Below are positions 3,294-23,327 of a stretch of 36,807 nucleotides of DNA, piece after piece; positions within the stretch are counted from its first letter, which is position 1, and each line of letters begins with the position of its first letter. The notes below the pieces were generated by a model that did no database searches, was not told where the DNA came from, and saw only the letters and a list, made by a program, of their open reading frames with translations. The position numbers and the translations under genes are program-made. The stretch is from positions 1-36,807 of the forward strand of contig JAHJMN010000031.1 of assembly GCA_018821305.1 (NCBI GenBank). Direction: 5' to 3'. The stretch is from Myxococcota bacterium. Its GTDB lineage: Bacteria; Myxococcota_A; Polyangia; HGW-17.

Positions 3294-4097
3294 TTAGTCC
3301 AGAACAACCAGACTGAATGCGATAACTATAATTCCTGAAATAAGGCCATAGACACTCCAGTGGCCTTCCCCATATTTTTTGGCCGTGGGAATCAATTCAT
3401 CAAGGCTTATGAAAACCATGATTCCAGCTACGGCGGCGAAAAGATAACCCATAACGAGATCCGAGAAAAACGCACGCAGGGTGAAAAATGCTACGATTGC
3501 TCCAAGAGGTTCTGCTAAACCGGACATGAAACTGTACCAGAACGCCTTCTTTTTACTTCCAGTAGCGTAATAAATCGGAACACTTACGGCAATACCTTCG
3601 GGAATGTTGTGGATAGCCACGGCGACGGCAATGCTTACTCCGAGGGTCGGGGAAGAGTATGCAGCAGCAAAAGTTGCAATACCCTCGGGAAAATTGTGGA
3701 TTGCGATTGCAACAGCAGACAAAAGCCCAAGGCGCATAAGGGCACGTTTTTCATCTTCGCTTCCCGCTTCTCCGGGGAGATTTCGCGCTTCATGGGGGTT
3801 TTCCGCTTCCGGGACAACCAGATCGATGAGAGCTGAAAGAATCATACCTCCAACGAACACAACAATTGTGATCATTTCCGCTTTCTTGGGGGAAAATGAT
3901 TTTGCAATCATTGTCTTAGCCATGGGGTACATCTCCACGAAGGAGATAAAAATCATAACCCCGGCACTGAACCCCAGTGCAGCACTGAGAAATTTTTTGT
4001 TCGTAGATTTACTGAAAAAAGCAATGGCGGATCCGATGCCGGTGGATAATCCTGCAAATAGGGTCAGTAAAAAAGCATTTAAAACCTGATGTGACAT
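3294..4097 (-). CDS. zupT: ZIP family divalent metal transporter (ZupT-like)
   Basis: An inner-membrane metal importer of 267 residues, the usual size for ZupT. It has about eight hydrophobic segments. The two metal-site motifs are HNFPEGIA (His134-Glu138) in TM4 and HNIPEGIA (His163-Glu167) in TM5, the signature of the ZIP family. A charged cytoplasmic loop (about 97-120, PEAENPHEARNLPGEAGSEDEKR) sits between TM3 and TM4. The family imports Zn2+ and often Fe2+, Mn2+ or Co2+; the substrate cannot be read from sequence. It is divergent from the rubrerythrin-like gene across 117 bp and upstream of the DsrE-like gene. Iron or manganese supply to the neighbouring diiron protein would be a sensible, but inferred, link. 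Confidence 0.9.
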   Translation of the reverse strand: MSHQVLNAFLLTLFAGLSTGIGSAIAFFSKSTNKKFLSAALGFSAGVMIFISFVEMYPMAKTMIAKSFSPKKAEMITIVVFVGGMILSALIDLVVPEAENPHEARNLPGEAGSEDEKRALMRLGLLSAVAIAIHNFPEGIATFAAAYSSPTLGVSIAVAVAIHNIPEGIAVSVPIYYATGSKKKAFWYSFMSGLAEPLGAIVAFFTLRAFFSDLVMGYLFAAVAGIMVFISLDELIPTAKKYGEGHWSVYGLISGIIVIAFSLVVLD

Positions 4098-5176: not shown

Positions 5177-5965
5177 ATGGCAAGAAATAATTTCAATAAT
5201 TCTATGGATCCCAACGAAGTCTCACAGATTGAAGAAGTAATAAATAATTTTCACAGGGTGCTTGAAAAACAGGGTGATGGGGATCGAAAAGTAATAGAAA
5301 ATTATCTTGATATTACATGGTGTTATCATGAATTTGCTATCGAAGGTATTGTAATGAATCACCTGGAAATCAAGTCTGCTCTTGATGAAAGAATCATAAG
5401 TGATTCCAGTCTGATACCTCATTATGAAGATGTGCGTGCTTATTACCATGGGATTAAAAAAATCCGGGCGGATCGTGGGAAAAAACGTCTGGCAGTTACT
5501 ATTAATTCAATTAAGGAACTTCATGACTTAATTACTGTCAATTCTGATTCCAAATCCCACTCCTATCGCAAGGAAATCCCACTGCACCGTCAGTATGCCC
5601 ATGATTTTTCTCCCCCGGAGAAAATTCCTTATCGTATGCGCAAACTTGGGGAATGGCTTCAGAGCGCTGGTTTCCGGAAACTGCCTCCTTTGATGCAGGC
5701 TGCAAGCGTTCACAACAGGCTGATGAGCATATTTCCCTGGCCGAAAAACTCCGGGGCTCTGGCCAGACTCGTTATGAATCAGATACTTATACACACGGGC
5801 TATCCACCGGTAATTATTCCTTCCGTGGAGCGCCAGACCTACTATGACAATATTCAGACTGATCTTCTCCACGAAACGGACAACCGTATGCTTGCTTTTC
5901 TTTCGGATACTCTTGTCAACTATCTGAATACTGTTATAAAAAAAATCTCCCCATCGGGAGTATAA
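5177..5965 (+). CDS. Fic-domain protein with degenerate catalytic motif
   Basis: A protein of 262 residues with Fic-fold architecture but no Fic active site. Homology is visible on both sides of the active site. An IEG motif with the inhibitory-helix Glu is at 55-57 (FAIEGIVMNHLEI). VHNRLMSI (178-185) precedes the loop. ARLVMN and then GYPPVIIPSVERQTYYD follow it (196-224), matching the usual GYPP-II-x-x-E-x-R-x-x-YY segment. The catalytic loop should read HPFxDGNGRxxR but here reads FPWPKNSGALAR (186-197): His to Phe, Asp to Lys, Asn to Ser and Arg to Ala. The final Arg197 is kept. AMP transfer by the canonical mechanism is therefore unlikely. It may be a pseudo-enzyme or regulator. The frame is open and ordinary, so it is not an obvious pseudogene. 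ATG 5177 has a GGGAAG site upstream. Confidence 0.75.
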   Translation: MARNNFNNSMDPNEVSQIEEVINNFHRVLEKQGDGDRKVIENYLDITWCYHEFAIEGIVMNHLEIKSALDERIISDSSLIPHYEDVRAYYHGIKKIRADRGKKRLAVTINSIKELHDLITVNSDSKSHSYRKEIPLHRQYAHDFSPPEKIPYRMRKLGEWLQSAGFRKLPPLMQAASVHNRLMSIFPWPKNSGALARLVMNQILIHTGYPPVIIPSVERQTYYDNIQTDLLHETDNRMLAFLSDTLVNYLNTVIKKISPSGV

Positions 5966-9103: not shown

Positions 9104-11722
9104 ATGCGACGAATATCTTTATTATTTTCAGTGTTTTTCATGTTATTTTCCTGTGCCGAAGGAACTCCTGATTCTGACGAATCATGCGGTGATGGCATAG
9201 TTAACGGTACAGAAGAATGTGAACCACCTTCAGAAGGCGCCTGTAATGCCCAGTGCATGAGAGAAGTCGCCATGTGTGGTGATGGAAACTGTGAGTACCC
9301 GGAAACGGCTGCAAACTGCAATGTGGACTGTGAGAATACGGTTCCATGCGGCAACGGCAGCATTGATATGGGCGAAGAATGCGACGGTTCCAATCTCGGT
9401 GGTCAAACCTGTGAAATGCACGGTATGCAGAGTGGAACCATTGCCTGTGATGCCGATTGCAAAATTGATCTTGCGGGTTGTCTCAGTGCTGTGGAATGTG
9501 GAAACAACGTTGTGGATCAGCAAACTGAAGCCTGTGACGGTACTGATCTCGGTGGCGAAACCTGTGATTCCCTCGGTTACAGTGGTGGTATTCTCCGGTG
9601 TCATCCGGACTGCTATTTCGATGCATCTGAATGTATTGATCCAAGTTGCGGCAACGGCACAGTTGAAGGTACCGAAGCTTGTGACGGCATTGATCTCAAT
9701 GGGGAATCCTGCATTTCCCGTGGGTTTAGCGGTGGGACGCTTAAATGCACAGAAGCTTGTACAATTGATGAAACAGGCTGTTCATCCTGTCCTAATGGCG
9801 TTCGTGAAGGTGATGAAGCCTGTGATACGAGCGATTTTGGTTCAAGAACCTGTCTCACAGAAGGTTTCGGCGGAGGCACCCTGACTTGTACCGGTACCTG
9901 CCAGATTTCTACTGCCGGTTGCAGCGTTTGCGGCAACAACACAATTGAAGACGGCGAATACTGCGAAGGCACAAACCTCGGTGGAGCCAGTTGTTCATCC
10001 CTTGGATTTTCCGGGGGACTCCTGACTTGCAACACATCATGTGGCTATGATACTTCCCAGTGTTTTTCCCAGGCTTGCGGTGACGGCAATGTCTCCGGTA
10101 GCGAAGACTGCGACGGAAGTGATCTTAACGGAGCCACTTGCACTTCCCTTGGTTTTGTTGGTGGAACCCTTGGGTGTACAAACTGTCAGCATGACACTTC
10201 TGCTTGTACCATGTGTGGCAATAATACCGTAAATTCTCCGGAACAATGCGACGGTTCCAGCCTTGGTGGAGCCAGTTGTACAACTCTCGGTTTTGACGGA
10301 GGCACCCTATCATGCGGTTCAAACTGTACCTATAATACATCATCCTGTTATACAAATAGTTGCGGAAACGGCACAATTACAGGTTCAGAGGACTGTGACG
10401 GTAGCAACCTCGGTGGGGCCACCTGCATAAGTGAAGGTTTCGATGGTGGAACACTTTCATGTAATTCAAACTGCACCTTCAACACTGGATCCTGCTACAG
10501 TTGTGGTGATTATACTAAAAATGGCACAGAAGAATGTGACGGATGGGACTACGGCGGAGCTACATGTACATCCCTTGGATATCCCGGTGGCTACCTGAGT
10601 TGCAATTCCAATTGTACTTTGAATACAACAAACTGCGCCGTTTGCGGCAACGGTGTTGTTCAGAGTGGTGAGCAGTGTGATGACGGGAATACCAACAATA
10701 ATGACGGTTGCTCAAGCACTTGTACCGTGGAATCAAACGCCTACAGGCCCATAAGACTCACTGGGGGAGCCGGTTCCAATGAAGGTCGAGTGGAAATGTA
10801 CTGGAATGGCACCTGGTATTCTGTATGCGACGATAACTATGATTCAACGGAACAAAATGTAGCGGATGTCATCTGCCGCCAACTTGGTTACACTGGAACA
10901 GGACATCAGTTTATTGATTCTTATCCCGGTTTGACCGTGGACAACTTCATAATGGATGACGTAAGTTGCACTGGAACAGAGGATTATCTGCATCGCTGTG
11001 CTCATAAAGGGACGGATGACTGCGGTACCGGTGAAGCTCTTGGAGTTGAGTGTATGCCGGGAGAAGGCGACGTCAGGTTTGTTGATGGTCCACATGGTAT
11101 GGAGGGTCGTCTTCAGGTTTATCACAGTGGAACATGGGGTGATGTTTGTGACGACACGCTTGAGAACTCTTCAAGTCACTGGTATGGAACCTACACAGTT
11201 TGTGCTCAGATGGGTCATAAATTTGGCTCATTCCTTGATAATACATACACGGGAAGCGGATCTTTCCACCTTGATGATGTTAGTTGCACTGGATCTGAAA
11301 TTAGAATAACAGACTGTACCCATTCCACTTGGGGTACCCATAACTGCGGAGCTTCTGAAGCCGCAGGTATGCGTTGCTCCGTATGGACCGAAGGAAACGT
11401 ACGACTTGCCAATCAGACTCAACGAAATAAAGGTCGAGTTGAAATACTTCATCAGAATGTATGGGGAACCGTCTGTGATGATGGTTTGAACACCGGGGGA
11501 ACCTGGGGTGATGAATTTACCACCGTTGCCTGTGGCGAACTTGGTTTTACGGCAGCCGGTAGTGTAAGCGTTGCAGGTTCAAATCAGGGAACCGAGCCTA
11601 CCTGGATTGATGACGTGGAATGTGCTGGGACTGAAGCAACGGTTTCCGCATGTCCCAATGACGGATGGGCTGTGGAAAACTGCTCCCATTACGAAGATGT
11701 TGAAATTACCTGTACTCCGTAG
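9104..11722 (+). CDS. Giant Cys-rich repeat lipoprotein with three SRCR domains
   Basis: A surface-exposed lipoprotein of 872 residues. The lipobox is MLFSC (lipidated Cys17). Two short divergent Cys motifs (28-77) are followed by nine tandem repeats of 46-50 residues (starting at 82, 132, 182, 229, 276, 325, 371, 420 and 467). These follow the scheme CGNG....E.CDG..LGG.TC, then SLGF.GGTL.C..C, then a closing Cys. A DUF4215-type CGNGVVQSGEQCDDGNTNNN motif (514-540) ends the array. Three scavenger-receptor Cys-rich domains follow at about 550-652, 657-759 and 766-872, each with the GRVE, W..VCDD, C..LG and DDV.C.G.E signatures. SRCR domains are mainly animal ligand-binding modules and uncommon in bacteria. 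The likely role is display of ligand-binding heads on a disulfide-stiffened stalk; this is inferred. It has its own upstream region and no coupled neighbour. Confidence 0.9.
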   Translation: MRRISLLFSVFFMLFSCAEGTPDSDESCGDGIVNGTEECEPPSEGACNAQCMREVAMCGDGNCEYPETAANCNVDCENTVPCGNGSIDMGEECDGSNLGGQTCEMHGMQSGTIACDADCKIDLAGCLSAVECGNNVVDQQTEACDGTDLGGETCDSLGYSGGILRCHPDCYFDASECIDPSCGNGTVEGTEACDGIDLNGESCISRGFSGGTLKCTEACTIDETGCSSCPNGVREGDEACDTSDFGSRTCLTEGFGGGTLTCTGTCQISTAGCSVCGNNTIEDGEYCEGTNLGGASCSSLGFSGGLLTCNTSCGYDTSQCFSQACGDGNVSGSEDCDGSDLNGATCTSLGFVGGTLGCTNCQHDTSACTMCGNNTVNSPEQCDGSSLGGASCTTLGFDGGTLSCGSNCTYNTSSCYTNSCGNGTITGSEDCDGSNLGGATCISEGFDGGTLSCNSNCTFNTGSCYSCGDYTKNGTEECDGWDYGGATCTSLGYPGGYLSCNSNCTLNTTNCAVCGNGVVQSGEQCDDGNTNNNDGCSSTCTVESNAYRPIRLTGGAGSNEGRVEMYWNGTWYSVCDDNYDSTEQNVADVICRQLGYTGTGHQFIDSYPGLTVDNFIMDDVSCTGTEDYLHRCAHKGTDDCGTGEALGVECMPGEGDVRFVDGPHGMEGRLQVYHSGTWGDVCDDTLENSSSHWYGTYTVCAQMGHKFGSFLDNTYTGSGSFHLDDVSCTGSEIRITDCTHSTWGTHNCGASEAAGMRCSVWTEGNVRLANQTQRNKGRVEILHQNVWGTVCDDGLNTGGTWGDEFTTVACGELGFTAAGSVSVAGSNQGTEPTWIDDVECAGTEATVSACPNDGWAVENCSHYEDVEITCTP

Positions 11723-12866: not shown

Positions 12867-14840
12867 ATGAGGAAATTACTGATTTTATTATTACTTACGT
12901 TCACAATATCCTGCGAAGATCAGCAAATTAAGAAAGAATGTGGTGATTTTGAAGTAAACCGGGATGGGGAAGAGTGTGACGGAATAGATTTTGCCGGATA
13001 TTCCTGTCAGGATTTCGGATTTTATGGGGGAAAACTTTCCTGCACGGCCAATTGCCTTATTGATACAACCGGTTGTGAAGTTATGGGAATGTGTGGGGAC
13101 AATGTTATCCAGGAAGCCGCAGGGGAGGACTGTGACGGGCTTACCCTTGGTGGAGCTGATTGTGAGAGTGAAGGTTATTATGGTGGTCAACTGACCTGCA
13201 ATTCCGATTGCCGCTTTGACTACACCCAGTGCGAGGAATCCGGTTATTGTGGTGATGATATAATTCAGACCAATGAAGACTGCGAAGGTGATGATCTTAA
13301 TGGTAATACCTGCCAGACCCTTGGGTATCACGGAGGTGAGCTTCTATGCCGAACCGACTGTAAATGGGAACTCACGGGATGTGTTGCAGCGGGAAGTTGT
13401 GGAGACGGCATAGTTCAGACAGGAGCCGGCGAAAAATGCGACAACTTCAATCTCGGTGATAATACATGCGAAAATAAAGGCTGGTGGGGCGGTATCCTTG
13501 GGTGCAGTGATACCTGCCAACTGGAGGAAGATTCCTGCTTTGACCCGGTTAAAGTGAGTGCCGGTTTCCTTACAACATGCTCCATCGATTCTCAAGGTCA
13601 GGCGTGGTGCTGGGGTGAAGGAATGTGCGGGCAACTCGGGGATAATTCAACTGGCAATCCTGACTGCTACCAGCTTTTTACAACGGGTGATGTAAATGCA
13701 CTGAGCGTTTCGGTGGATGAACCGGTTCAGGTGTATAATCCTGATAACAAGATATTTACCGATATCAGTGCCGGCTTTCTTCATTCCTGCGCTATTGAAG
13801 CAACAAACCCTTCAGATCCCACAGGAAAAGTTTGGTGCTGGGGGATGAACTTGCTTTTAGGAAACTCCATTGAGGCTGGAGATGCTACTGGCTTTTCAAA
13901 AATACCGGTGGAGGTAGAAACACCGGCTGGAATTAAATTTGAAAAAGTTAGAATTGGATGGTCTCATACCTGTGCTTTAAGTACCGCTGGCGATATATAC
14001 TGTTGGGGAGATAATTCATATCACCAACTTGGGCAGGGACTTGGTGCTTTAAGTGATTTTTATGTAATACCAGTAAAAGTTGCGTCAACTGAAACTTTCA
14101 TAGATTTCGATTCTGCAGCTTATCACAACTGTGCTCTCAATGTAGATAATCAGGTTTTCTGCTGGGGTTTGAATAATTTCGGCCAGACCGGAACTTTAAT
14201 TGGAGGTGACAACTGCCCAATGTCTGATGAGGGTCCTTCTGGGTTTAATACTCATTGTACAAAGAGTCCCGTTAAACATCAGGATCCTAATTTAATTGGC
14301 TTTAAAATCACCGTCGCCGGCGGAGAATTTGATACTGCTCTGGCTACGGCATTGATTGGACATAGTTGTGTTATAGGGTCAAATCATAACTCATCAATTG
14401 TAGACACCGGTGTTGATATCTGGTGCTGGGGTTCCAATCATGGAGGGCAGCTTGCAAAGCCACGAATGGGTGCAGAACCTGGTGGAATTGACTATTCTAT
14501 AAATTCAGTTCAGGTCAATCTTCCCCTTGGAATTAATTTTCTTACTTCTCTTGATGCGGGATATGCCCACACTTGCGCTGATGGCATGGGATTTACCCTT
14601 TGCTGGGGTTTGAATTATACTGGCCAACTTGGAATAGGTTCCTATTCAATCAGCGAGGATGTTACTTTCGTGGAACTACCTGAGTATCAGGCTTTTCGGA
14701 ATGTCAGCAGTGGTTATCTGCACACTTGTGCCATGGGTGTCGGGTCTATGTGGTGCTGGGGTCTCGGGGATTTTGGACAACTTGGCGTTGGCTTAAAAAC
14801 CATATCCAATCTGCCCTACCGTACAGTCTCTCCAGAATAA
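12867..14840 (+). CDS. Cys-rich repeat lipoprotein with RCC1-like propeller
   Basis: Predicted lipoprotein of 657 residues, lipobox FTISC (lipidated Cys16). Residues 25-224 hold four Cys-rich repeats of the same type as in the gene at 9104 (starts near 25, 76, 128 and 178). From about residue 229 to the end there are seven RCC1-like repeats. Each has a variant of SAGF.H.CA followed by .WCWG.N..GQLG; the GHSCVIGSN/WCWGSN copy is the most divergent. Seven units are the number needed for a complete RCC1-type seven-bladed beta propeller. The conserved Cys in each HxC...WCWG unit could form one disulfide per blade, fitting an oxidising extracellular site. RCC1-like propellers act as protein-binding platforms. 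Ribosome site GGGAGG lies seven bases before the ATG. Confidence 0.88.
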   Translation: MRKLLILLLLTFTISCEDQQIKKECGDFEVNRDGEECDGIDFAGYSCQDFGFYGGKLSCTANCLIDTTGCEVMGMCGDNVIQEAAGEDCDGLTLGGADCESEGYYGGQLTCNSDCRFDYTQCEESGYCGDDIIQTNEDCEGDDLNGNTCQTLGYHGGELLCRTDCKWELTGCVAAGSCGDGIVQTGAGEKCDNFNLGDNTCENKGWWGGILGCSDTCQLEEDSCFDPVKVSAGFLTTCSIDSQGQAWCWGEGMCGQLGDNSTGNPDCYQLFTTGDVNALSVSVDEPVQVYNPDNKIFTDISAGFLHSCAIEATNPSDPTGKVWCWGMNLLLGNSIEAGDATGFSKIPVEVETPAGIKFEKVRIGWSHTCALSTAGDIYCWGDNSYHQLGQGLGALSDFYVIPVKVASTETFIDFDSAAYHNCALNVDNQVFCWGLNNFGQTGTLIGGDNCPMSDEGPSGFNTHCTKSPVKHQDPNLIGFKITVAGGEFDTALATALIGHSCVIGSNHNSSIVDTGVDIWCWGSNHGGQLAKPRMGAEPGGIDYSINSVQVNLPLGINFLTSLDAGYAHTCADGMGFTLCWGLNYTGQLGIGSYSISEDVTFVELPEYQAFRNVSSGYLHTCAMGVGSMWCWGLGDFGQLGVGLKTISNLPYRTVSPE

Positions 14841-14984
14841 GTTTGGTTACCGCGAAACACTGAATCTATTCTCCATAAATCATTCGGATTCCAATCAATT
14901 TAACAGTAGTATATTCAGTTACTTCAAAAGTCTTTGACATAAATCCCTCTTTTCCCCTTGATTACGGGACTGGTTTTCCGTTAA

Positions 14985-15200
14985 ATGCACAACTGGCGGT
15001 GGGATATGAAACTCGAAAATGATGCTGAATTTCAATTGGAGTTAAGGGAATACAGTCTATGCTGCTCCTGCGAAAAATGTATTCATTACAACGGGTTTAA
15101 TAAAGGCTGTTCTCTCTACTGGCCCAACGGAAATCACCGGGAGCAATCTTTTGTAGAGCATCCGTTGATCATTTTCTGTAAAGACTACGAGATGAGGTAG
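14985..15200 (+). CDS. Small Cys-rich protein, possible metal binder
   Basis: A cytoplasmic protein of 71 residues, or 64 if the in-frame ATG at 15006 is used. The core is YSLCCSCEKCIHYNGF, then GCSLYWPNGNHRE, then IFCKDYEMR. The spacing CCxCxxC...C...H...C resembles small conserved bacterial proteins ending in an FCKxFE-like motif, and suggests a zinc or iron-sulfur site. I do not know a function. The 15006 start has GGTGGG very close upstream and the 14985 start has no clear site, so the start is uncertain. A TTGACA hexamer at 14934-14939 is a possible -35 with a poor -10. Confidence 0.6.
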   Translation: MHNWRWDMKLENDAEFQLELREYSLCCSCEKCIHYNGFNKGCSLYWPNGNHREQSFVEHPLIIFCKDYEMR

Positions 15201-15272
15201 TGGCAAAGTAGTATTTACAAAATTCTTTGCCCGTTTTCAGGATATAAACCATTTATTAAAAAGGAAGAACTA

Positions 15273-16247
15273 ATGCCCAGAATGGCTGAATTTTATATTG
15301 GAATTGATCTTGGAGGCACTAATCTTCGAACGGCTCTTTTTAAAGCTACTTCCAAAACCCTTGAACCTGTAAGTTTTTTAAAAGATAATCTTCGCAGTAC
15401 TCGTCCAGATGATGTTTTAGATTTTATTGAAGAAACAGTCAAAACAGTTGCCGGTGAACGCGGAATCAGTGGAATAGGATTGGGTGTGGCGGGAATGATT
15501 TCCGCTGGTGATCAAATTGTTAGAAGAGCACCAAATCTGGACTGGACGGATTTTCCTTTAGGGAAGGAAGTTTCATCCCGACTTGGGTGCGTTACAGAAG
15601 TTATAAATGATGTTAACGCTATTGCCTGGGGTGAATATGTCTTCGGTTATGAAAAGAAATACCCTGGAATGCTTTGTGTTTTCATGGGAACGGGCATAGG
15701 AGGCGGTCTGATTCTGGATGGGCATCTTGTTGAGGGATCTCATGGAATGGCGGCGGAAATCGGACACGTTAAAGCTGTTGCTTCACCGGACGCAAGGAAA
15801 TGCGGCTGTGGAAAATCCGGATGTATTGAAGCTTATCTCGGCGGAAAAAACTTTGGATCCTGGATTGGTGAAGTGATCGACAGTTGGGATGGAGCAGCCA
15901 CAAAACTTAGTAATGATCCTGCATTTCCACTCCATGCCGGACATGTGGATGAGGCAGCAGCAGCCGGTGATATTTTTGCTCTTTCTCTGTGGAATGAACT
16001 GGCTCCCGCTTTAGGTATGGTTCTGGCAAATGCAGTAACTTTGACGGATTGTGGTGTGCTTCTTATGGGCGGGACTGTATGGGATAACTGCCCAGTTTTG
16101 CGTCGTTTGGTGACACAATCTTATAATGATTTTGTAAATACTCCATCGAGAGCTACGATTCTTGATAGTCGGCTGGGAGATAAAGCTGGTCTTTACGGGG
16201 CCGCTCACAGGGCTTTCATGAGAAATTTGTCCTCAGAAATTGATTGA
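15273..16247 (+). CDS. ROK family sugar kinase (glucokinase-like)
   Basis: A cytoplasmic sugar kinase of 324 residues, normal for the family. It has the phosphate-binding motif DLGGTN (12-17), the catalytic loop NDVNAIAWGE (112-121, catalytic Asp113), ATP-site GTGIGGGLI (139-147), sugar-contact EIGH (162-165) and the ROK zinc motif CGCGKSGC (177-184). ROK kinases phosphorylate glucose, N-acetylglucosamine, N-acetylmannosamine and similar sugars; which one applies here cannot be told from sequence. The next gene, 63 bp downstream on the same strand, is nagZ, which releases N-acetylglucosamine from cell-wall fragments. Phosphorylation of that sugar is therefore an attractive inference. The start follows AAGGAAGAACTA. 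Confidence 0.9.
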   Translation: MPRMAEFYIGIDLGGTNLRTALFKATSKTLEPVSFLKDNLRSTRPDDVLDFIEETVKTVAGERGISGIGLGVAGMISAGDQIVRRAPNLDWTDFPLGKEVSSRLGCVTEVINDVNAIAWGEYVFGYEKKYPGMLCVFMGTGIGGGLILDGHLVEGSHGMAAEIGHVKAVASPDARKCGCGKSGCIEAYLGGKNFGSWIGEVIDSWDGAATKLSNDPAFPLHAGHVDEAAAAGDIFALSLWNELAPALGMVLANAVTLTDCGVLLMGGTVWDNCPVLRRLVTQSYNDFVNTPSRATILDSRLGDKAGLYGAAHRAFMRNLSSEID

Positions 16248-19065: not shown

Positions 19066-19217
19066 GATAGTGACTCATTTAAAAGAAATGCTTCAGGAAA
19101 GAGCCCCTGTTTGCCTGATCCTTCTACTGATTTCCTGTTTATCTGATTTTTTTAACAGGAAGACAGGGAATCAGGAAACAGTGGCAGAATCAGGTCGTAA
19201 CCATTCAACATCAATTA
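19066..19217. repeat. Foldback repeat unit P, copy 1
   Basis: First of two copies. The last 98 bases (19120-19217) are identical at every position to 19606-19703; the preceding ~50 bases are similar with a few differences. The unit is an imperfect palindrome: CTTCTACTGATTTCCTG on the left pairs with CAGGAAACAGTGGCAG on the right, around a GATTTTTTT centre. A truncated third copy of its left edge lies at 28361-28398. It is non-coding; short open frames through it lack ribosome sites and protein features. Confidence 0.85.
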
Positions 19218-19548: not shown

Positions 19549-19703
19549 ACGATTTTGACTCGTTTTAAAGAAATGCTTCAGGAATGAGCCCCCTGTTTTC
19601 CTGTTCCTTCTACTGATTTCCTGTTTATCTGATTTTTTTAACAGGAAGACAGGGAATCAGGAAACAGTGGCAGAATCAGGTCGTAACCATTCAACATCAA
19701 TTA
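19549..19703. repeat. Foldback repeat unit P, copy 2
   Basis: Second copy of the unit at 19066-19217, in direct orientation about 485 bp away, so the two copies bracket element A. Bases 19606-19703 match copy 1 without change. The left edge begins after ATTAGACCGCTTGCGGAG (19528-19545). Perfect identity suggests recent duplication, gene conversion or active selection on the stem. The stretch from 19704 to 19817 holds a further GCGGTCTAAT word (19766-19775) and no gene. Confidence 0.85.
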
Positions 19704-19817: not shown

Positions 19818-22800
19818 CTATTTTTCAGAGATTTTCAGGATTTTTTTAATATTTTCAATAAGGGAATCAGGAGTGAAGGGTTTTGGTAAAAATTCATGTC
19901 CCTGAGTAATTATTTGTTTGATTGCAGTGACTTGAGTATCGTGACCGGATGTAAAAAGGAATTTTAAATCAGGGTGAGTTTTGAGAGCTATCTCCAGAAT
20001 TTCTCCACCATCCATATCTGGAAGAATCATGTCGCAGAGTACCAGATCAATATTGGACGTATTTGTAATTATATCAAGGGCTTCAGTTCCATTTTTTGAT
20101 TCAAAAACCGAAAATCCGGCCCGGGATAAAATCCTGCACATAATCTGTCGCACGGAGTATTCATCCTCTATAATAAGAATGGAACAGATAGATGATTGTG
20201 ACGGAAAGCCCGAATTTTCATAAAGATTTTCAGGTGTTGAAACGGGAAGGAGGATTCTGAATGAAGCACCAGGAGATAGTGGAACAATATCCACAGTGCC
20301 ATAGTGTTTGTTTATGATAGTTTTTACCGTAGAAAGACCGAGGCCTGTATTTGTACCTTTTCCGGTTGCTTTGAAAGGCTCAAATAATGATGTAGTGTTT
20401 TGATCAGGTGTATCTCCGTTGTCTGAGCATAGTATTTCGATTCCATCGGGAATAAAATCAACAAAATGGTGTGATGTAATTTTTTTCAGGGAAATTTTAA
20501 ATTTCCCAACAGACTGCATAGCATCACGGGCTCTGAGGGCAATATTTAAAATGACTTGCTCTATCTGTACAGTGTCGCCGGAGATGAAAAGATTATTTTC
20601 AATGTCTGTTTCAATCTGAATACGATCTCCCAGGAGCCTGGAAAGAAGGGGAATTAGCGAATGCAGTTTTTCACTAAGATTGAAATTTTCCCAGGAAGGA
20701 GCGGAAACTTTTGAGAAAGTCAGTAACTGGCGAACTAAAGTCGCCGCATACTCGGAGTTCACCTTGATTTCTTCCAGGGATTCAAGGACGGAACCTGGAT
20801 CATTAATTTCCATCATTGCCAGTTGCGTATTTCCGTGAATGCAGGTCAAAATATTATTGAAATTATATGCTATTCCACCTGCAAGGGCTCCTACCACTTC
20901 CATTTTCTGACTCTGAATAAATTTACCCTGTAGATCCATTATCTGGGTTTTGAGTTTTTCTTCAGCAGTAATATCTCTTCCGATAATGAGAACATTGCTT
21001 GCTTTGCCCTCGTTATCAGATTCCGGAATCAATCTCCAGTCATAGAAGAGATCTTTGAAATCAAGTTTGATGGTTAATTCTTCCCCTGTGGTTATTGTTT
21101 TTCCTGCCATGGATGCGATTACAAAAAAACCTTCTTCGGAGACATATTCCCGCATTACCTTTTCAAAGGAACTGAATTGAGATTTATTGGAATTGATTAA
21201 ATTAAAAGCTGGGTCTATTTTTACTATGACGTCCGGTATAGAATCAAGGAGGTTACGGTATTTTTCCTCAGATAACATAAGTCTGACTTGAGAATCATGC
21301 TTTTCAGTTTCATCCCGAAATACACCGATGATTCGGCATTCTCCTTTTCGTTCGGGAATTTGTATAAAATCAGCAGAAAACCATAATTGCTTTTGTGAAA
21401 TTATAGCGCGAAAGAAAGCACTTGTGTGTTTGGAGATTGATGCATGTTCAATGGCTTTTTTGAAAGCAGGCAAGTCTTCCGGGTGAATCAGGTTGGGGAA
21501 ATCCACTGCCTCTATCCCCTCGAACCGAGAAATATTTGGAGTATAAAAGTGGATTTTATCAAAAAATCCTGAAAACATTATAATTATTTCATCAATATTT
21601 TCTGTGATTTCAGTCACCAGTGTGAGCGTTGATTCCAGTTGTTTTTCCATTTCCTTCCGGATTGTCAAATCTGTACTGAATCCAGCATATTGTTGCTTGT
21701 TTTCACAACAGTTTTCAAGGGATCCTGTGGACCAAATCCATCGGTACTGACCGTCAGTATTTTTTACACGATAGGTAGTGTCCAGTTTTCCAGATGTGAT
21801 AAAATCACTGAAATCCTGAAAAAACGTATTCAAGTCATCTTCATGAACGATATCTTTAACGTCGTTTAAAGTTATACTGGGCTTGGAAATAAAATCATTA
21901 TGGTAATGGCCGCGGAACTCAATTCGGTCTGGAGGGATGAATTCCCAAAGTTCTACATTGTTGTTTTGAAGTAGAATTTCAAGTTGTCGCTCTCGCTCTC
22001 TGAGTTGTGAAGATATCTCCAGAGAGTTAAGTGCATTGCCTATAACGGCCCCGAGAGTATGAAAAACATCCAGATCCGCTGCGGTAAAATTACGATGAGT
22101 AATATCATCTGCACCAAGGAATCCAAACCATTTACCTCCCGCTTGAAGAGGAATTAAAACACTGGAAGTAACTTCCATGTCGGAAAAGAATTCCCTCTCC
22201 ATGTCTGTCATGTTGGTGCTGCCCAACGCAATTATTTTTCCTTCCTCAAGGGCATTAATCCACTCATAACCAAACAAGCCATAGGGAATCATATAGAAAT
22301 AAGGGTCATCTTTTATTGAGCGTGTTCCTTCAACGGTGAACTCATGAGTTCGGTTCATATAAAGTTCGCCAATTGTACCTTCCTGATTTTGAACAAGATA
22401 TGCTCTTATCATTCCCCAGGATATGGCAAATTCTTCGAGTATTCGGTTAACAAGAGTATCGGAAAGATTATGGCTGAGTAAGTGAGTAGAAATGCTGGAG
22501 ATAGTTTTGAGCAATCTTTCCCGTCGCACCTGACCAAGATAGATTTCTTTTTCGTGGCTGATATCTTCAACATGAGCAAGAATTGCTTTATGATTTCCAT
22601 TATCAAAGGAGTTCAAATAAACTCTTGCAAGGAAATCTTCTCCGGTTTTCTTACGGTGTACCCATTCAAAAGTCACACTGCCCTTTTCAATAGCTTGAGC
22701 AATACGCATTTCTGCAGCTTCAAAGCTCGATGTTCCATCTATTTGAGTTTCCGGTGATATTTCCGATGGATGAAGTTCAAGGAATTCTATTTTATTTTTA

Positions 22801-23327
22801 TAATTAAAAAGCTTGAGAGCAGCTTCATTCAAATCAAAAAAACCTGTTCCATCAAGTAGCATAAGTGGAAGTGGTGAATTGTGAAAAATATTATGATAGC
22901 GCTTACCTTCTTTTTTAGTTTGCTCCTCCCGTAAATATTTCATTATAGATAATTCATTGGCGTTCAAAAGCTCTATCAGCAAATCTCTGGAATCAATGAG
23001 TTCCTCAAGGGGAATAACCTGATCCGAACCATCTTTTATGGCCTTCACGGTTTTTGCCACGGTGATACTTTCTCCAACTGTAAGCACAGGAGTTTTAATG
23101 GAACGATCTCTAATGATTTTCGATATTTCCCGGAGAGCATTTTGATCCGTTGAATAATCAATAACAATAAGATCAATAACTTTCTCCAGGATTATTTGCC
23201 TCATTTCAGGGAAAGAGGAACAGGATTCAAATACAGGTTCATATTGGCCTTCAAGGGATTGGATAATGGCGTTTTCAATTAACTCTGTCGAAGTGGAAAA
23301 AACAAAGACGTATATTTTTTTAATCAT
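19818..23327 (-). CDS. Hybrid histidine-kinase homologue lacking phospho-His
   Basis: A multidomain protein of 1169 residues with no evident transmembrane segment, so it is probably cytoplasmic. The order is a receiver-like domain (1-115, Asp57 kept but acid pair and Lys missing), PAS (about 145-255), GAF (270-440), three further PAS domains (about 450-565, 575-685, 690-800), DHp (812-875), HATPase (915-1030) and an intact receiver (1046-1165; Asp1055, Asp1099, Thr1126, Lys1149). The H-box reads GALAGGIAYNFNNIL: the phosphoacceptor His is Tyr821. The N-box reads LNIALRARDAM, with Arg932 where Asn normally holds Mg-ATP. The GLGLSTV G-box is kept. It may therefore sense and bind without autophosphorylation, or act through its C-terminal receiver. 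It lies 200 bp from the next minus-strand gene; a sigma-54 response regulator is two genes upstream. Confidence 0.9.
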   Translation of the reverse strand: MIKKIYVFVFSTSTELIENAIIQSLEGQYEPVFESCSSFPEMRQIILEKVIDLIVIDYSTDQNALREISKIIRDRSIKTPVLTVGESITVAKTVKAIKDGSDQVIPLEELIDSRDLLIELLNANELSIMKYLREEQTKKEGKRYHNIFHNSPLPLMLLDGTGFFDLNEAALKLFNYKNKIEFLELHPSEISPETQIDGTSSFEAAEMRIAQAIEKGSVTFEWVHRKKTGEDFLARVYLNSFDNGNHKAILAHVEDISHEKEIYLGQVRRERLLKTISSISTHLLSHNLSDTLVNRILEEFAISWGMIRAYLVQNQEGTIGELYMNRTHEFTVEGTRSIKDDPYFYMIPYGLFGYEWINALEEGKIIALGSTNMTDMEREFFSDMEVTSSVLIPLQAGGKWFGFLGADDITHRNFTAADLDVFHTLGAVIGNALNSLEISSQLRERERQLEILLQNNNVELWEFIPPDRIEFRGHYHNDFISKPSITLNDVKDIVHEDDLNTFFQDFSDFITSGKLDTTYRVKNTDGQYRWIWSTGSLENCCENKQQYAGFSTDLTIRKEMEKQLESTLTLVTEITENIDEIIIMFSGFFDKIHFYTPNISRFEGIEAVDFPNLIHPEDLPAFKKAIEHASISKHTSAFFRAIISQKQLWFSADFIQIPERKGECRIIGVFRDETEKHDSQVRLMLSEEKYRNLLDSIPDVIVKIDPAFNLINSNKSQFSSFEKVMREYVSEEGFFVIASMAGKTITTGEELTIKLDFKDLFYDWRLIPESDNEGKASNVLIIGRDITAEEKLKTQIMDLQGKFIQSQKMEVVGALAGGIAYNFNNILTCIHGNTQLAMMEINDPGSVLESLEEIKVNSEYAATLVRQLLTFSKVSAPSWENFNLSEKLHSLIPLLSRLLGDRIQIETDIENNLFISGDTVQIEQVILNIALRARDAMQSVGKFKISLKKITSHHFVDFIPDGIEILCSDNGDTPDQNTTSLFEPFKATGKGTNTGLGLSTVKTIINKHYGTVDIVPLSPGASFRILLPVSTPENLYENSGFPSQSSICSILIIEDEYSVRQIMCRILSRAGFSVFESKNGTEALDIITNTSNIDLVLCDMILPDMDGGEILEIALKTHPDLKFLFTSGHDTQVTAIKQIITQGHEFLPKPFTPDSLIENIKKILKISEK

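Follow-up and report, generated by a model that had tools for sequence, protein, structure and literature searches.

The window analysed here, a 36,807-nt stretch of DNA from a Myxococcota bacterium, encodes on its minus strand (19818–23327) a hybrid histidine-kinase homologue in which a dead kinase core is followed by an intact receiver. The sequence evidence gives good support to its assignment as a CckA/NtrB-like pseudo-histidine kinase, and the protein most likely serves as a regulator of, or a receiver for, other kinases. Pseudo-histidine kinases are defined as proteins with a homologous HisKA/HATPase core that lack one or more kinase functions (PMC12632262), a description that the window protein fits in both sequence and fold. 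The favoured reading, which we hold at a probability of about one half, is that the protein would act through its sensors, its dimer and its receiver, with phosphate supplied in trans and perhaps with phosphatase activity. DivL is a known example of such a protein, yet the number studied is small, and for almost none has the mechanism been worked out. A dead kinase set against a canonical orthologue from the same genus is a before-and-after case, and hence a good test case: the pair asks what role is left to a hybrid kinase that cannot phosphorylate itself but has kept its receiver.

The open reading frame is uninterrupted, with neither a stop nor a frameshift across its 1169 codons. At the N-terminus (residues 1–127; 22947–23327, on the minus strand like all features below) lies a domain without a Pfam match, the first 110 residues of which adopt a full (beta-alpha)5 receiver fold in the model, with a pLDDT of about 80 across residues 1–120 and a poor model for the remainder. 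The preliminary description had called this domain incomplete. The modelled fold is complete, but the acidic pair and the Lys are absent, and on the model the domain is therefore best termed a pseudo-receiver. It is followed by PAS1 (residues 140–260; 22548–22910), a single GAF domain (residues 275–440; 22008–22505), PAS2 of the PAS_3 type (residues 447–562; 21642–21989), a PAS-like region (residues 563–680; 21288–21641) and PAS4, a weak PAS_4 match (residues 681–790; 20958–21287). Four PAS domains had been proposed, together with the GAF domain; Pfam recognizes the GAF domain and three of the PAS domains, and the PAS-like region, which has no Pfam match, is placed by position only. The DHp domain (residues 791–880; 20688–20957) was delimited by alignment and model, and the degenerate CA (HATPase_c) domain (residues 881–1030; 20238–20687) and the C-terminal receiver (residues 1048–1165; 19833–20186) by Pfam. 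The HisKA match, at 20.4 bits, falls below the Pfam cut-off of 26.9, and HATPase_c scores 41 bits as against 80 in the orthologue.

Codon reading and alignment place the damage at the catalytic positions. The phosphoacceptor His is replaced by Tyr821 (TAT, 20865–20867) and the N-box Asn by Arg932 (AGA, 20532–20534), as the preliminary description had it, and two further lesions were found: the acid at H+1 is lost through replacement of Asp by Asn822 (AAT, 20862–20864), and the alignment shows that the G1 box (20412–20423) is broken, reading DNG-D for DxGxG. In its fuller context, DNG-DTPD, this box is one residue short and its second Gly is gone. The G2 box, GLGL (20334–20345), is intact, again as first described. 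Thus, neither the phosphoacceptor His nor the N-box Asn and DxGxG used for Mg-ATP, which mark an active kinase, is present, and the predicted failure of autophosphorylation is strongly supported, by four lesions instead of two.

The significance of these changes is evident from a core alignment of the window protein with 59 others, comprising 29 paralogues from the window genome and 30 cores from a same-genus genome (G001); the census covers these 59 retrieved cores. The phosphoacceptor His is present in 58 of the 59, the N-box Asn likewise in 58, and an acid at H+1 in all 59 (50 Asp, 9 Glu). When conserved columns were taken from 56 canonical cores (the orthologue and two other cores that are degenerate being set aside), 16 columns were at least 95% conserved. 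The window protein keeps 13 of them, and its three departures (H821, N932 and the second Gly of G1) are all catalytic. In the orthologue these three are conserved and one other differs. A search of 318 class genomes for the motif GIAY[DN]FNN returned a single instance, the one in this gene, whereas the window genome alone holds 17 instances of GIAH[DN]FNN; taken with the 58-of-59 counts, this shows that the Tyr is not a chance reading.

Of note is what the core has kept. Asn825 (20853–20855), identified by alignment, occupies H+4. In HisKA proteins the acid at H+1 serves only kinase activity and a T/N at H+4 only phosphatase activity (PMC3510030), so what has been lost is specific to kinase activity, while the residue expected of a HisKA phosphatase remains. 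Any phosphatase activity may nonetheless be weak with Tyr at position 821, by analogy, since the His contributes to phosphatase activity in HisKA proteins (PMC5727384). The C-terminal receiver (Pfam, 90 bits) had been described as intact, and it does hold every key residue: E1054 and D1055 of the acid pocket, D1099 (codon 20031–20033), S1127 and K1149 (codon 19881–19883). An intact receiver downstream of a dead core speaks for a protein still in use.

A single orthologue was found, a reciprocal best hit of 1265 aa from G001 (C82; L033:6676-10473) with 42% identity, matching the window protein over its full length barring one extra PAS domain. No others were found in 318 genomes of the class or 379 of the phylum, a single-protein scan of genome contigs yielded no relative, and the gene had no plasmid matches. 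The two proteins are sisters in the core tree (support 100/99). The orthologue’s N-terminal domain shows the same degeneration, but its kinase boxes are canonical (GIAHDFNN, LALNARD and SDTGYGI), with His and Asn at the positions equivalent to 821 and 932. Because the only orthologue found has a canonical kinase, the loss arose in the lineage of the window protein, and the pseudo-kinase form has been seen in one species only. The preliminary description had regarded close relatives with His and Asn as evidence against its reading. Taken literally, such a relative exists, but it points to a lineage-confined loss and does not demonstrate an error, because several separate substitutions lie within an otherwise open frame.

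Conservation between the two proteins varies by domain. Identity is highest in PAS1 (67%), followed by DHp (49%), GAF (45%), the receiver (44%), CA (40%) and the N-terminal pseudo-receiver (23%). The core tree gives the window protein a branch of 0.91, 1.6 times that of the orthologue (0.57), whereas in the receiver tree the values are 0.84 for the window protein and 0.93 for the orthologue. The faster change would thus be limited to the kinase core, which for a single pair is suggestive and no proof.

The fold itself appears unaffected. A model of the DHp-CA-receiver portion (mean pLDDT 82.5, pTM 0.60) is that of an ordinary transmitter. It was matched to CckA (5IDJ; Z 21.4, 211 aligned residues, rmsd 14.9 owing to domain placement), the CckA CA domain (5IDM; Z 21.4, 165 aligned, rmsd 4.8) and DivL (4Q20; Z 20.2, 200 aligned, rmsd 10.0), long-helix matches of high rmsd that speak to fold only, with Z scores tied within 1 giving no ranking. 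By sequence, the closest match among solved structures is CckA (2.8e-27), not DivL.

These observations suggest the following mechanism. As in any ordinary kinase, the DHp helices would receive the signals sensed by the pseudo-receiver, PAS and GAF domains. The protein would neither bind Mg-ATP properly nor offer a phosphoacceptor; with the His and the ATP site both gone, it could therefore act as neither acceptor nor donor for a partner in a mixed dimer. Output would instead pass through the dimerizing DHp bundle, which provides a receiver-docking surface, and through the live C-terminal receiver. The latter would receive its phosphate in trans from one of the many other hybrid kinases of the genome, with the PAS and GAF domains gating the charged receiver, and the DHp helix bearing Asn825 would retain, detect or remove the phosphate of a receiver. 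Phosphorylation of the receiver by another kinase is plausible by analogy, and is favoured because hybrid receivers charged by other kinases are known and the window genome encodes dozens of possible donors. The receiver tree gave no supported cluster from which a phosphodonor could be named, except that with the orthologue, and the analysis brought up no partner kinase, HPt protein or target. A more specific version, offered tentatively, is that of a naturally occurring hybrid that lacks kinase activity but is competent as a phosphatase: gated by its sensors, it would accept phosphate from other kinases and drain it. If this were true, only the residues for kinase activity would have been lost in evolution, the phosphatase Asn and the receiver being retained, with the same-genus orthologue still a kinase.

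The main rival to trans-charging of the receiver is a scaffold role like that of DivL, in which the dead transmitter binds a regulator or a kinase and alters the activity of that kinase, with phosphate on its own receiver being secondary. There is precedent for such a role, as DivL, with Tyr at the same site, binds DivK~P through its DHp surface, and the pseudo-kinase ChrS helps a paralogous kinase to carry out phosphotransfer, the proposal being that the two form heterodimers. The DHp domain of the window protein is also closer to its orthologue’s than are most of the sensor domains. Nothing marks a partner, however, and the retention of every key residue in the C-terminal receiver counts against this rival as well; scaffolding is a possibility of the second rank. 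Somewhat less likely again is erosion of a core whose kinase signalling has become useless in this species, with no new function gained. The canonical state of the sole orthologue, the restriction of the pseudo form to one species, the accelerated core branch and the location of the gene outside the conserved deoB-SHMT-C92-OmpA-NtrC-TPR block (the orthologue lying elsewhere in the sister genome) are all in keeping with decay; the open frame, the intact and unaccelerated receiver downstream and the 13 of 16 invariant core positions kept are not. Under free decay of the entire gene, the three changed invariant codons of 16 would correspond to ~0.19 missense changes per codon, or ~219 in the gene, and with a nonsense/missense ratio of 0.05 about 11 stops would be expected. 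Since none is present, neutral decay of the whole gene after the loss is argued against, although relaxed selection on the core alone would be compatible with the sequence.

Two further explanations carry very little weight. An assembly or sequencing error might be suspected in a draft genome of 216 contigs, yet the changes at codons 821, 822 and 932 and the one-residue loss in G1 are separate and fall in an otherwise open frame of 3.5 kb: a separate error would be needed for the pair of adjacent codons (TAT AAT from a CAT GAT type), for the N-box substitution and for the G1 change, which makes this explanation highly improbable. Least probable of all is that Tyr821 works as a phosphoacceptor, an option raised in the preliminary description. 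Tyr can be phosphorylated in principle, and PDB entry 4Q20 still carries the name tyrosine kinase once given to DivL, but DivL itself has no autokinase activity, and use of the Tyr is unsupported here given the further loss of the second Gly of the G1 box, the acid at H+1 and the Asn of the N-box.

Pseudo-histidine kinases are a known kind of protein; the Tyr form with all of these boxes lost is rare. The His is absent from 0.9% of HisKA domains (722/76,471; PMC12632262). Across 85 thousand species, the motif G-x-A-Y-[DN]-F-N-N was found in 89 stretches, 16 of them within histidine-kinase frames, and the 15 of these frames that were inspected all keep the H+1 Asp and mostly the N-box Asn. A pair of species from Kiritimatiellales and Verrucomicrobia shares a Tyr-for-His hybrid kinase homologue (L116, near 5549–5572, and L117, near 3695–3718) in which the N-box and G1 are also lost and the receiver is degenerate. 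The sister genome encodes a second hybrid pseudo-kinase (L172, 1–2622; G001:C31), with Asn for His, Ala for the N-box Asn and broken G1 and G2 boxes, but with the receiver Asp and Lys kept, which suggests that the combination of dead core and live receiver recurs in the genus. In the window genome itself, another kinase (L026, about 14724–15812; G000:C43) has apparently lost its G2 box (TVNL) and carries Ser for the first N-box Asn; it keeps the His and the main Asn, and its orthologue (L157) is canonical. A literature search for other hybrid pseudo-kinases returned nothing further.

Upstream of the gene lie a 341-aa TPR-like membrane protein, an NtrC-type regulator, an OmpA/TSP3 protein, a C92 peptidase, SHMT and DeoB. 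The order of this block is conserved in G001 without the pseudo-kinase gene, the orthologue of which is found in another neighbourhood, so the NtrC-type regulator next to it does not count as a conserved partner. The NtrC and OmpA genes are conserved in three more genomes (G002, G003 and G006), again without it. Promoter and terminator matches were no more numerous than in shuffled sequence, or nearly so. Nearby, the window holds two copies (98% identical) of a 114-nt repeat, at 19104–19217 and 19590–19703, both of which fold better than shuffles (z −4.3 and −3.3). The repeat has 26 copies in the window genome at 78–100% identity, several of them paired, with one weak fragment in the same-genus genome; a further 36 relatives have none. 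It has no Rfam family and resembles dispersed elements of the REP or MITE kind. Elsewhere in the window, an RCC1-repeat protein is encoded at 12867–14840, and parts of an 872-aa ORF (9104–11722) and of the ORF at 1196–2914 both match one RCC1-like gene in the sister genome, which suggests a cluster of RCC1-like repeat proteins.

Among known systems, the best match in sequence and fold is to CckA (5IDJ) and HisKA kinases of the NtrB/FixL/ZraS type. CckA is a bifunctional kinase and phosphatase, whereas the window protein has lost the kinase residues. Hybrid kinases whose receivers are charged by another kinase include EspC of Myxococcus, phosphorylated by EspA (PMC4320627), and RetS of Pseudomonas, phosphorylated by GacS (PMC8175716); the likeness to the window protein drawn here is one of proposed phosphate supply, and their partners, unlike its own, are known. 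DivL with its native Tyr has neither kinase nor phosphatase activity and senses a phosphorylated regulator; it binds ATP weakly (57 uM for TNP-ATP), and phosphate uptake can be stimulated in its Y550H variant (PMC4211667). The window protein resembles this Caulobacter crescentus protein in the Tyr at the phosphoacceptor site, its PAS sensors, the retained DHp-CA fold and the expected absence of kinase activity. DivL has, to our knowledge, no C-terminal receiver. Unlike DivL, the window protein is also without an intact N-box, G1 box and H+1 acid, and it carries a live receiver at its C-terminus.
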